From Saprospiraceae bacterium (GTDB lineage Bacteria; Bacteroidota; Bacteroidia; Chitinophagales; Saprospiraceae), in NCBI GenBank assembly GCA_020631135.1, contig JAHDHU010000001.1:1-64000 (forward strand): a DNA stretch of 64,000 nt, written 5' to 3'. Positions 36,958-41,273 of the stretch are shown here, one piece after another (position 1 is the first letter of the stretch; every line of letters begins with the position of its first letter). The notes under the pieces are model-generated. The model worked only from the letters and a program-made list of their open reading frames with translations, did no database searches and was not told the DNA's origin. The translations under genes and the position numbers were made by a program.

Positions 36958-37341
36958 TCACAGCTTTTTTTCTAAGGACGACAAAACACTTTTTACCAAT
37001 GCCTCTATTTGAACATAAGTAGGCATGTCTTTACCTTGATAAACAAACATTAATTGCATTTGCTTTTGATGATCGATCAATTTGGATTTTGCCTCCAAAC
37101 AATTTATTCTAAAAGCCTCCCTGACCAATCTTTTGATTCTGTTTCGGTCAACGGCCTTTTTAAAATTTTTCTTAGGAACGCTAACCGCAAATAGAGTCGG
37201 ATGTTTTTGTTCATTAAGCTCCTCAATTATGTAAGCCATTTTGAGAGGGTATTTACCCATAAAGGCACCTTCCTTAAAAAGTCTATCAATAGACTTTCGA
37301 CTCTTTAAACGCTCAGATTTGGATAAGGTCTTTTTCAACAC
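36958..37341 (-). CDS. rnpA: Ribonuclease P protein component (GTG start)
   Basis: RnpA is the protein cofactor of RNase P, which trims the 5' leader of tRNA precursors. The protein has 127 aa. The basic signature DRNRIKRLVREAFR lies at 65-78 and the N-terminal RLKSRKSIDRLFKEG at 11-25. GTG at 37341 is the best start; a TTG follows immediately and no ATG is suitable. rpmH, usually next to rnpA, is not here: upstream is the divergent ndh gene and downstream a DUF1801 gene. Confidence 0.93.
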   Translation of the reverse strand: MLKKTLSKSERLKSRKSIDRLFKEGAFMGKYPLKMAYIIEELNEQKHPTLFAVSVPKKNFKKAVDRNRIKRLVREAFRINCLEAKSKLIDHQKQMQLMFVYQGKDMPTYVQIEALVKSVLSSLEKKL

Positions 37342-38786: not shown

Positions 38787-38822
38787 ATCTTTGCTTGTAT
38801 CGTATATCAAAGAAGGTTTTAC

Positions 38823-38853
38823 TTCGTTTAAAAGTGGAAACAATGTAGTTTTG
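38823..38853 (+). promoter_or_regulatory. Candidate promoter of the ABC cluster
   Basis: TTCG (38823-38826), a 19-base spacer and TAGTTTTG (38846-38853, exact TAnnTTTG) stand just 4 bases before the ATG at 38858. If this is used, the mRNA would be leaderless or almost so. Confidence 0.4.
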
Positions 38854-38857
38854 TATC

Positions 38858-39487
38858 ATGGTCCAAACCCATAAACTTACATATCAATACGATGGCAATA
38901 ATCAGTTTAGTTTTCCAGATTTAAGCTGCGCCTCTGGAGAGATACTTTTGATTTTGGGAAAATCAGGAATCGGAAAATCAACCTTATTAAATCTGCTTGG
39001 AGGATTGATGCCTTCTAGATCTGGTGAGATTTTGATTGACGATACCAAGATTAGTGATTTAAGTTTGAGTAAACTCGATAAATTTAGAGGATCCAATATT
39101 GGGATTGTTTTCCAAAAGCCTCATTTCATTTCTTCTATAAGCGTAATCGAAAATTTATTGTTGACTCAAAAATTAGCGAAAGTCGGTGTTGATAAAAATG
39201 TGTGTTTGCAAATTTTGGAAGATTTAGGGATTGCAAAAAAGGCCAATGCCAAAATTTCCAATTTGTCTGAAGGAGAGAAACAAAGGGTGTCTATTGCAAG
39301 AGCCATTGTTAATAAGCCAAAACTGATATTGGCGGATGAACCAACTTCTGCATTAGATGATGAAAATTGTCAGAAAGTAGTGGACCTTTTAAACCAACAA
39401 GCTAAAAAAATTGGAGCGGCTTTAATGATTGTTACTCATGACAAAAGATTAAAGGACATCATTGATAACCAAATCATTTTATCATGA
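38858..39487 (+). CDS. ABC transporter ATP-binding protein (LolD/MacB-type)
   Basis: The gene encodes 209 aa. Walker A is GKSGIGKST (34-42), the Q-loop is at VFQKPHF, the signature is LSEGEKQR (136-143) and Walker B is LILADEPTSALDDE (156-169). The family (LolD/MacB/FtsE) works with FtsX-like permeases as mechanotransmitters rather than as classical importers. It overlaps the permease gene by four bases (ATGA). The histidine-rich partner points to metal-related work. Confidence 0.92.
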   Translation: MVQTHKLTYQYDGNNQFSFPDLSCASGEILLILGKSGIGKSTLLNLLGGLMPSRSGEILIDDTKISDLSLSKLDKFRGSNIGIVFQKPHFISSISVIENLLLTQKLAKVGVDKNVCLQILEDLGIAKKANAKISNLSEGEKQRVSIARAIVNKPKLILADEPTSALDDENCQKVVDLLNQQAKKIGAALMIVTHDKRLKDIIDNQIILS

Positions 39488-40755
39488 GTCTATTAAAACT
39501 AGCTTGGAAAAATATCATTGCTAATCCTTGGACATTAGTTCTTAACCTAATTTTGTTTGCATTGGGTATTGGCTTGATTAACTTTTTATTGCTTTTTAAT
39601 GATCAAGTAAAAGAAAAATTCGAAAGCAATCTGGCTCAAATAGATATGGTGATTGGAGCCAAAGGAAGTCCATTGCAAATGATACTTTGTAGCATGTATC
39701 ATGTTGATAATCCAACTGGTAATATTAAGATTGAAGAAGCCAAGCCTTTTTTAAATCCCAAACATCCGCTTATCAAAATGGCTGTTCCGTTATCTCTTGG
39801 GGACAATTATAGATCTTATCGCATTGTAGGTACTACCTATGACATCCTAGATCTATACAACGCCAAAGTAGGGCAAGGAAACAAATGGCTACATGATGAG
39901 GAAGTTACAATAGGTGCAATCGTTGCCTCAAAAACAGGATTAAAGATTGGTGATAAGTTTGTCAGTAGTCATGGATTTGAAGAAGATGAAGACTTGGCAC
40001 ATGATCACTCGGCATTAAAAGTTGTAGGTGTTCTAGAACCCACCGGATCCGTGATAGATCAATTGATTTTAACCAATACCGCGACAATTTGGAATGTTCA
40101 TGCGCACGAAGGCGAAAGCCACGATCATCACGATCATGAAGAACATTCTCATGATCACGATCATAATCATGACAATAGCGTGGAGGATTTATTAAATCAT
40201 CCTGAAGAAGAGATCACAAATATTTTGATAAGATTCAAAAACAAAAAGAACTTTCAGTCATTGAGCATGCCAAGGAATATCAATGAAAACACGGATTTAA
40301 TGGCAGCTTCTCCAGCGTATCAAATTAATAACTTAAACGCCAATATTGGGGTAGGTACCAATGCCTTACGATATTTAGCTTTGCTCATTGCCTTTGTGTC
40401 TGGTTTGAGCATTTTTATAAGCTTGTTTAAATCACTCCAAGAAAGAAAATATGAATTGGCATTAATGCGGGTAAACGGAGCATCTCCAGGCCAGTTGGCT
40501 TGGTTGATTTTATTGGAAGGATTGGTGCTAGCCATTTTGGGATTTGTCCTTGGTATAATTGTAAGTCATCTTGCTTCGGCTTTGATGGGTCAAGCTATGA
40601 GTGATGCTTATCAGTATGATTTTAGCGCGTGGAAGTTTGGACGCAATGAGGCCAAACTATTGATCGCATCTTTGCTTATTGGTATTGTTGCGGCATTGAT
40701 TCCTGCTTTTAAAGCTTTTAAAACGGATATTAGTAAAACATTGAGCGGTAAATAA
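39484..40755 (+). CDS. FtsX/MacB-type ABC permease with histidine-rich loop
   Basis: The gene encodes 423 aa. One helix lies at about 15-37, then a large periplasmic domain (MVIGAKGSPLQMILCSMYHVDNPTGN and so on), then three helices near 290-315, 335-365 and 390-412: the MacB/FtsX layout. Residues 206-230 carry 11 histidines among Asp/Glu in a loop of the periplasmic domain, a probable zinc or copper binding strip. Similar ATPase/permease pairs stand next to DUF3299 proteins in zinc-repressed clusters (the Zrg system of Vibrio is the comparison I have in mind). A role in zinc handling is inferred. Confidence 0.88.
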   Translation: MSLLKLAWKNIIANPWTLVLNLILFALGIGLINFLLLFNDQVKEKFESNLAQIDMVIGAKGSPLQMILCSMYHVDNPTGNIKIEEAKPFLNPKHPLIKMAVPLSLGDNYRSYRIVGTTYDILDLYNAKVGQGNKWLHDEEVTIGAIVASKTGLKIGDKFVSSHGFEEDEDLAHDHSALKVVGVLEPTGSVIDQLILTNTATIWNVHAHEGESHDHHDHEEHSHDHDHNHDNSVEDLLNHPEEEITNILIRFKNKKNFQSLSMPRNINENTDLMAASPAYQINNLNANIGVGTNALRYLALLIAFVSGLSIFISLFKSLQERKYELALMRVNGASPGQLAWLILLEGLVLAILGFVLGIIVSHLASALMGQAMSDAYQYDFSAWKFGRNEAKLLIASLLIGIVAALIPAFKAFKTDISKTLSGK

Positions 40756-40781
40756 CGTCTCCTTGGTATAAAGGTTTTTAA

Positions 40782-41273
40782 ATGAAGATTACAAACGGCA
40801 TTTTGATCATTTTTTTGGCTGTGACAAGTATCGCATTCGCGAATGCGCAAGAGACCAAAGAAATTATTGAAAACGTTGACTTCAAAGAAGAAAAGAAGAA
40901 GAATGTTTGGCGTACACTCGGAAAAATAAGTTACAAAAAACAGTATAATGAGATCATGGGATTTAAGGTGGATGTCCCTGTTTTTTCTGATGATGTTAAA
41001 GCTTTAGAAGGAAAAGAGATCGAGGTCAAAGGATATATTATTCCAGTCGAAGGTTACAAGAGTCATAAAGAATTTATTTTCTCTGCCTTTCCATACAATA
41101 TGTGTTTTTTCTGCGGAGGTGCAGGTCCCGAAACAGTGATGGAAGTAGAAGCAATGGATCCAATAAAATTTAGATCCGAATCCATAAGAATAAAAGGAAA
41201 ATTGAAGTTAAACGCTGAAGACATCAATAACTTGATGTACAAGATCGTGGATGCACAAATGATAAAAGATTAG
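40782..41273 (+). CDS. Secreted DUF3299-like protein with CxxC, metal-ABC cluster
   Basis: The gene encodes 163 aa with a signal peptide (1-22, AFANA then Q). The mature core, LEGKEIEVKGYIIPVEGYKSHKEF followed by YNMCFFCGGAGPETVMEV, follows the pattern of DUF3299 OB-fold proteins, but with a C-x-x-C where those have GACIHxPPP. The cysteines could bind metal. It lies 26 bases behind the permease and is surely in the same operon. The cleavage-site codons consist of the 16-base palindrome at 40832. Confidence 0.7.
   Translation: MKITNGILIIFLAVTSIAFANAQETKEIIENVDFKEEKKKNVWRTLGKISYKKQYNEIMGFKVDVPVFSDDVKALEGKEIEVKGYIIPVEGYKSHKEFIFSAFPYNMCFFCGGAGPETVMEVEAMDPIKFRSESIRIKGKLKLNAEDINNLMYKIVDAQMIKD
40832..40847. 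repeat. CGCATTCGCGAATGCG perfect palindrome
   Basis: A 16-base perfect palindrome identical to those at 17966 and 53735. Here it encodes A-F-A-N-A, the signal-peptidase recognition site of the DUF3299-like protein. Confidence 0.9.

Follow-up and report, generated by a model that had tools for sequence, protein, structure and literature searches.

A Zrg-like ABC cluster with a histidine-rich permease loop and no detected ZrgA in a Saprospiraceae bacterium

Three genes and their inheritance

The window, by which we mean the whole 64,000-nucleotide stretch of Saprospiraceae DNA analysed here, carries three plus-strand open reading frames at 38858-41273, confirming the ATPase, FtsX-type permease and secreted CxxC protein proposed in an earlier sequence-only reading. 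The first (38858..39487, plus strand, 209 aa) encodes a ZrgC/PA4064-like ABC ATPase with a LolD/DevA-like nucleotide-binding domain; it matches ABC_tran at 116 bits and has a Walker A motif (GKSGIGKST) at residue 34, the signature LSEGEKQR at 136 and a Walker B motif (LILADEPTSALDD) at 156. Its end overlaps by 4 bp (ATGA) the gene for a ZrgB/PA4065-like FtsX/MacB-type permease (39484..40755, plus strand, 423 aa; FtsX, 61.3 bits). The third gene (40782..41273, plus strand, 163 aa) encodes a DUF3299-like (ZrgE/PA4066-like) protein, a putative secreted beta barrel with an N-terminal stretch that by eye resembles a signal peptide. Among NCBIfam models the ATPase scores best against LolD (168.8 bits, below the cut-off of 307.75), and the permease reaches 56.9 bits against LolCE, below the cut-off of 362.45.

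The gap 5' of the ATPase gene (38787..38857, plus strand) does not contain the candidate Zur-like palindrome described below. Upstream of it lies a gene for an NDH-2-type dehydrogenase (Pfam), a type absent from the recurrent neighbours of relatives' clusters, and downstream of the cluster is a gene on the opposite strand without a Pfam match. The gene at 36958-37341 (minus strand) resembles by eye the RNase P protein gene and may be rnpA.

We evaluated the inheritance of the cluster by profile searches. At thresholds of E up to 1e-15 for the permease and up to 0.001 for the third protein, the permease was found in 36 of 198 genomes of the phylum and the third protein in the identical 36, sets that share ancestry and so do not represent independent events. 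Among 60 nearer relatives the permease was present in 38 and the third protein in 40; the permease never occurred alone, and the third protein occurred without it in G012 and G049. The ATPase gene lies directly 5' of the permease gene in 68 of the 80 loci fetched with the permease profile, and a DUF3299-like gene is nearby in 44 of the 80, an adjacency that is frequent rather than universal. Many relatives carry two or more tandem copies of the third gene. Together these profile searches and models show that the ATPase, a permease of predicted MacB/LolE fold and a putative secreted protein resembling PA4066 are inherited together as a unit. A Bacteroidota-type cluster was also seen on a contig titled Euryarchaeota archaeon (L250), probably a wrongly binned contig of a metagenome-assembled genome.

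The permease loop, its core histidines and the cysteine pair

The permease model (pLDDT 90.6) comprises TM1, a large periplasmic domain and TM2-4, so that the ATPase adjoins a predicted 4-TM permease of MacB type, as in the Zrg and PA4063-PA4066 systems. MacB (5gko) was the best Foldseek match (E 6.9e-16). VIA-align superposed the model on 5xu1_M with Z 24.6 (7.2 Å over 349 residues) and on 5gko with Z 19.8 (4.4 Å over 355 residues), and the fold neighbours returned by the two programs were MacB, LolE, HrtB and YtrF. The sole long uncertain stretch of the model is a disordered His-rich loop, with Asp and Glu as well, in the periplasmic domain, where residues 211-230 have a pLDDT of only 53-58.

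This loop (residues 206-230; 40099..40173, plus strand) contains, as the sequence-only reading had counted, 11 His in 25 residues, against 8 in the remaining 398 residues of the permease (2.0%). The binomial probability of this enrichment is ~7e-13, or ~3e-10 when all windows of the permease are considered. Measured from His206 to the next conserved segment, the median His count of 117 Bacteroidota loops is 6 (range 0-38), with at least 3 in 94 and at least 6 in 66, and 18% of the residues in these loops are His compared with 2.2% elsewhere in the permease. The position of the loop and its His/acidic character are kept, and its length and sequence vary freely. A non-conserved loop had been named in advance as evidence against the metal reading; what we found is conservation of place and make-up without conservation of length or sequence, and 12 of the 117 Bacteroidota loops have only 0-1 His.

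Three histidines are far more constant than the loop as a whole. His163 (codon 39970..39972, plus strand) is kept in 121/121 aligned permeases, His173 (40000..40002, plus strand) in 120/121 and His206 (40099..40101, plus strand), which is the first His of the loop and belongs to a W-x-x-H motif, in 121/121; Asp107 is likewise kept in 121/121. This set spans Bacteroidota (117) together with Aeromonas, Phaeobacter, Catenovulum and Deinococcus and is restricted to permeases longer than 380 residues; it counts sequences rather than lineages, and some contigs are duplicated between genomes and contig loci. All three histidines were also kept in 12/12 permeases of a second set that partly overlaps the first. 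The structure alignment comprises 53 permeases, the window's included, drawn from 80 loci, with the others omitted for compactness. Since His163 and His173 flank a strand-loop-strand in the model and His206 ends the helix that precedes the loop, it is plausible that the three share one site.

Against DUF3299 the third protein scores 16.8 bits where the Pfam cut-off is 22, and the likeness first noticed by eye is thus real but weak; proteins above this cut-off were found in 19 of the 198 phylum genomes. Its C-F-F-C segment (residues 108-111, Cys108 and Cys111; codons 41103..41114, plus strand) stands where the proteobacterial DUF3299 counterpart has C-I-H. GACIH occurs at this position in Phaeobacter, Aeromonas, Ruegeria, Pseudooceanicola, Sulfitobacter and PDB 4hsp, which bears out the earlier view of it as the usual motif, at least for proteobacterial DUF3299 proteins. 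The same reading had called the cysteine pair unusual; it is instead the Bacteroidota norm, both cysteines being invariant in 52/52 aligned DUF3299-like proteins. Other Bacteroidota proteins have the intermediate motifs GCMH, GCCYS and GCFYC at the position of the pair. Given this invariance and these intermediates, the alignment identifies CxxC as a clade-wide family signature, with Cys-x-x-Cys in the place of the Cys-x-His of the other branch.

The model of the third protein is a beta barrel (pLDDT 86). It superposes best on PA4066, PDB 4hsp (Z 8.8, 3.3 Å over 104 residues), the sole chain with Z of at least 8. The fold alone is weak evidence, because several unrelated OB-fold chains reach Z 6 to 7.5; in Foldseek no PDB chain matched at a threshold of E 0.001, and a sequence search of the PDB returned 4hsp at E 1.8 only. 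The probable link to PA4066 draws on this rank, the sub-threshold profile match and the intermediate sequences taken together.

Two further genes for CxxC DUF3299-like proteins lie elsewhere in the window's genome (L033:7222-7686 and L034:7897-8406, on contigs C17 and C35), without ATPase or permease genes and with no candidate palindrome upstream. One of them adjoins iscS/iscU-like genes, as judged by eye, and precedes such genes in three genomes of the genus. Two Deinococcota proteins annotated as hypothetical (L132:3773-4231 and L283:2917-3339) have Cys-Pro-Phe-Cys and adjoin an ATPase and a permease; they have no Pfam match and probably belong to the same family as the DUF3299-like third protein.

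Relation to ZrgA-bearing systems

The nearest described systems are the ZrgABCDE clusters of V. cholerae and V. parahaemolyticus and PA4063-PA4066 of P. aeruginosa. In Vibrio, zinc represses Zrg, the system is needed when zinc is limiting, and ZrgA is the proposed binding protein, according to the available portions of two reports (PMC9820375, PMC9817125). By contrast, the accessible part of a third describes the homologous P. aeruginosa pair as modelled as MacB and assigns PA4063-PA4066, by inference, to export of pyochelin-cobalt rather than to zinc handling (PMC11481552). ZrgABCDE shares with the window cluster a split ATPase and MacB-type permease and a DUF3299-type secreted partner, and homologous proteobacterial operons run ZrgA-ATPase-permease-DUF3299. 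The window system differs in that no ZrgA (DUF2796) was found, no ZrgD lies in the cluster and no Zur site is recognisable; its permease carries the His loop, and it has CxxC where the ZrgABCDE side has GACIH. PA4066 is the best structural match of the third protein, a counterpart of the ZrgA-type PA4063 was not found, and the other differences from PA4063-PA4066 are those just given.

Other MacB-fold machines are more distant. MacB of MacA-MacB-TolC shares the permease fold (5gko, Z 19.8), whereas here ATPase and permease are separate chains rather than a fusion and no MacA-like or TolC gene lies in the cluster. The LolCDE system provides the best-scoring ATPase model, LolD, and a close permease fold, LolE, yet the window has one permease gene instead of two and scores far below the LolD and LolCE cut-offs. 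The clusters on D. radiodurans pMP1 and Allomeiothermus pMESIL01 share a Cys-Pro-Phe-Cys protein, an ATPase, a permease and the lack of a ZrgA on the sequence record; they differ in having 0 loop His and in placing the CxxC gene first. Three Rhodobacterales plasmid operons (L281, L282 and L287) combine an HlyD-type protein with an ATPase, a His-loop permease and a DUF3299 protein, a MacAB-like version of the arrangement.

Within the ZrgB/ZrgC/ZrgE (PA4064-PA4066) family, the window cluster appears to represent a Bacteroidota branch that lacks ZrgA. Because ZrgA, a Zur site and a sufficient DUF3299 score are missing, we file it as a variant and not as a member of ZrgABCDE. The sequence-only reading had described a resemblance to zinc-repressed Zrg-type clusters. 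The resemblance stands, through homology and shared parts (the MacB fold, the PA4066-like protein and the homologous proteobacterial operons); zinc repression is not supported for the window copy, where the candidate box is absent, as it is from the 18 relatives' operons scanned.

ZrgA itself (DUF2796, PF10986) was found above cut-off in 0/60 relatives and 0/198 phylum genomes, and it was not found in the window's genome, whose assembly is 73% complete. As positive controls, the same profile matched the ZrgA-bearing records in two sets (2/4 and 3/7 records). Weak PF10986 matches in 11 of the 198 phylum genomes (E up to 0.01) were considered as possible Bacteroidota ZrgA and rejected, being below cut-off and mostly short; 2 of 14 control genomes likewise gave sub-cut-off matches.

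We then compared ZrgA and the loop across 11 operons from plasmid records, which represent few lineages and for which ZrgA status comes from the plasmid records alone rather than from whole genomes. The ZrgA-bearing operons (Phaeobacter, Aeromonas, Pseudooceanicola, Sulfitobacter and strain SC52) have 0-1 loop His, and the ZrgA-less Rhodobacterales operons (Ruegeria conchae, strain M382 and Alisedimentitalea, the last two near-identical) have 13-15. Those of Catenovulum, D. radiodurans and Allomeiothermus have neither a ZrgA on the sequence record nor a loop. The absence of any operon among the 11 with both ZrgA and a His loop fits a replacement of one by the other. The loop is not always needed, since three ZrgA-less operons lack it and 12 of 117 Bacteroidota loops have only 0-1 His. 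These comparisons lead us to a conjecture that we entertain seriously and stop short of favouring: the loop may be a built-in replacement for ZrgA, anchored at His206, which would pass metal to the three-His core and on to the CxxC or CxH barrel, with at least two swaps, in Bacteroidota and in one Rhodobacterales lineage.

Metal context, proposed mechanism and alternatives

Genes near the cluster bear on the identity of the metal. Among 80 loci, a Fur-type gene is nearby in 9, MerC in 8 and a COG0523-type GTPase in 7, and Pfam confirmed one or two genes of each type; the clusters of Pedobacter and Cyclobacteriaceae stand with genes of all three types. Upstream of the operons in these two groups lies the palindrome TGCAAYNNNRTTGCA, often twice, with a spacing of ~37-40 bp. 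Within 700 bp of 67 ATPase-permease loci it occurs exactly at 9 and with at most one difference at 12, compared with Markov expectations of 0.04 and 0.8 from 200 first-order resamplings, although some of the loci counted here had also served to recognise the motif by eye. The upstream sequence, 49 kb in all, contains 14 exact palindromes, and the other 724 kb contain 8. The loci more independent of that recognition are L201, L224 and L251 (exact), L234, L235 and L240 (one difference) and the window's own genome. Four of the seven exact palindromes in the P. cryoconitis genome are at the cluster locus, and one palindrome in that species precedes genes for a Cys/His-rich protein and, as judged by eye, an apparent RND pump. 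We consider the palindrome a candidate Zur box.

The sequence-only reading had suggested a genome-wide search for such a box, and in the window's genome this search found three exact palindromes. At L267:4087-6494 (contig C89) a second Fur-type gene is followed by an exact TGCAACACCGTTGCA palindrome and then by MerC, HupE/UreJ and MbnP genes, making this a candidate Zur locus of the genome. The Fur-type protein beside this palindrome is 35-40% identical to cluster-borne Fur-type proteins, and the genome's other Fur has no match to them at E 0.001. The remaining palindromes precede genes for a Cys-rich exported protein and a TonB-type receptor (L268:2124-5117, contig C89) and genes for two small exported proteins with a converging TonB-type receptor gene (L269:1603-4983, contig C21). 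The N-terminus of the L268 receptor reads GLCGMCKERIE, HMA-motif-like by eye and without a Pfam HMA match; one of the two L269 exported proteins is His/Asp/Cys-rich.

The search thus placed the palindrome beside the genome's own Fur-type and MerC genes and not before the window cluster. The earlier statement that no Zur-like site lies upstream of the cluster agrees with our scan, which used the motif inferred here for Bacteroidota and matched there at best 9 of 12 positions; six matches with at most two mismatches occur in the window, none near the cluster. We considered Zur control of the window copy and rejected it, the palindrome being absent before this cluster and 0/18 scanned relatives' operons showing it. 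Zinc control of the window copy is therefore unsupported, and the link of the cluster to zinc would be a comparative one. Our literature search returned nothing to the point on FtsX permeases rich in His or on a Zur box in Bacteroidota, which leaves absence from print unproven, and the word Bacteroidetes does not occur in the available parts of two papers on Zur and COG0523.

These data allow us to propose a mechanism. We lean, modestly, towards reading the cluster as a mechanotransmission ABC machine. Outside the cytoplasm it would transfer a transition metal, most probably zinc, from one carrier to another; the loop would gather the metal, the three histidines would relay it and the CxxC barrel would be the partner protein. 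Metal binding, the identity of the metal, the direction of transfer and its control are all inferred. The loop would collect periplasmic metal and pass it to the site formed by the three core histidines. As the ATPase binds and hydrolyses ATP, the periplasmic domain would shift and so release the metal, free or in a complex, to or from the CxxC barrel. The loop would be the in-cis equivalent of ZrgA, the separate His-rich protein that acts in trans in Proteobacteria.

The alternative that survives best, which we still regard as rather unlikely, is a MacB-like exporter whose cargo, a metal-chelator complex or some other molecule, would be driven out across the envelope, with the loop only sensing or buffering metal. 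The MacB/LolE fold of the permease suits export, as does the pyochelin-cobalt export inferred for PA4063-PA4066 in the accessible part of that report (PMC11481552). The three His-loop Rhodobacterales operons have a biotin/lipoyl-binding HlyD-type protein beside the ATPase (Pfam on two), and for those operons the MacB-like export reading is therefore favoured. No membrane-fusion gene, however, is present in the window cluster or was recognised among the largest 16 recurrent-neighbour clusters listed for the 80 loci, and the third secreted protein, found in 36/36 permease genomes, has no MacAB-TolC counterpart.

Copper, to which CxxC and His-rich loops are suited as well, or several metals could take the place of zinc. 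We consider this unlikely. It would accommodate the CxxC barrel, the MbnP-type and MerC genes at the own genome's Fur-type locus and the P. cryoconitis palindrome before the Cys/His-rich protein and apparent RND pump. It sits poorly with Vibrio Zrg, described as zinc-repressed in the portions available of PMC9817125 and PMC9820375, and with the COG0523-type and Fur-type genes beside the cluster, which point to zinc starvation. One ZrgA operon, moreover, holds two genes annotated as GTP-binding proteins of the COG0523 sort.

Direct zinc import, with the loop as a tethered substrate-binding arm like that proposed for Vibrio ZrgABC, seems to us decidedly unlikely: the predicted permease has the 4-TM MacB-type fold, and we know of no transmembrane substrate path in members of that fold. 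Such an importer would explain the complementarity of ZrgA and loop and the poorer growth of Vibrio zrg deletions under zinc limitation, as given in the available parts of PMC9820375 and PMC9817125. A LolCDE-like machine for lipoproteins or envelope lipids, with the loop as incidental low-complexity sequence, is highly improbable, for although LolD and LolCE score highest among NCBIfam models and LolE is among the best folds, all scores fall far below the curated cut-offs, the three core histidines and PA4066-like partner mark a Zrg-type family, and the loops hold 18% His against 2.2% elsewhere.

Publications, in the parts available, differ over Zrg/PA4063-type machines, reading them either as zinc importers or as exporters of a metal complex. 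Set against this, the ZrgA-less version, with its putative metal ligands borne by the permease and three core histidines kept across phyla, is a simpler object for binding, structural and mutant tests. If the loop does replace ZrgA, the family would include an ABC machine that hands on metal with no separate protein to bind it. The candidate Bacteroidota zinc response, with tandem palindromes beside a Fur-type gene, is within reach in culturable Pedobacter.
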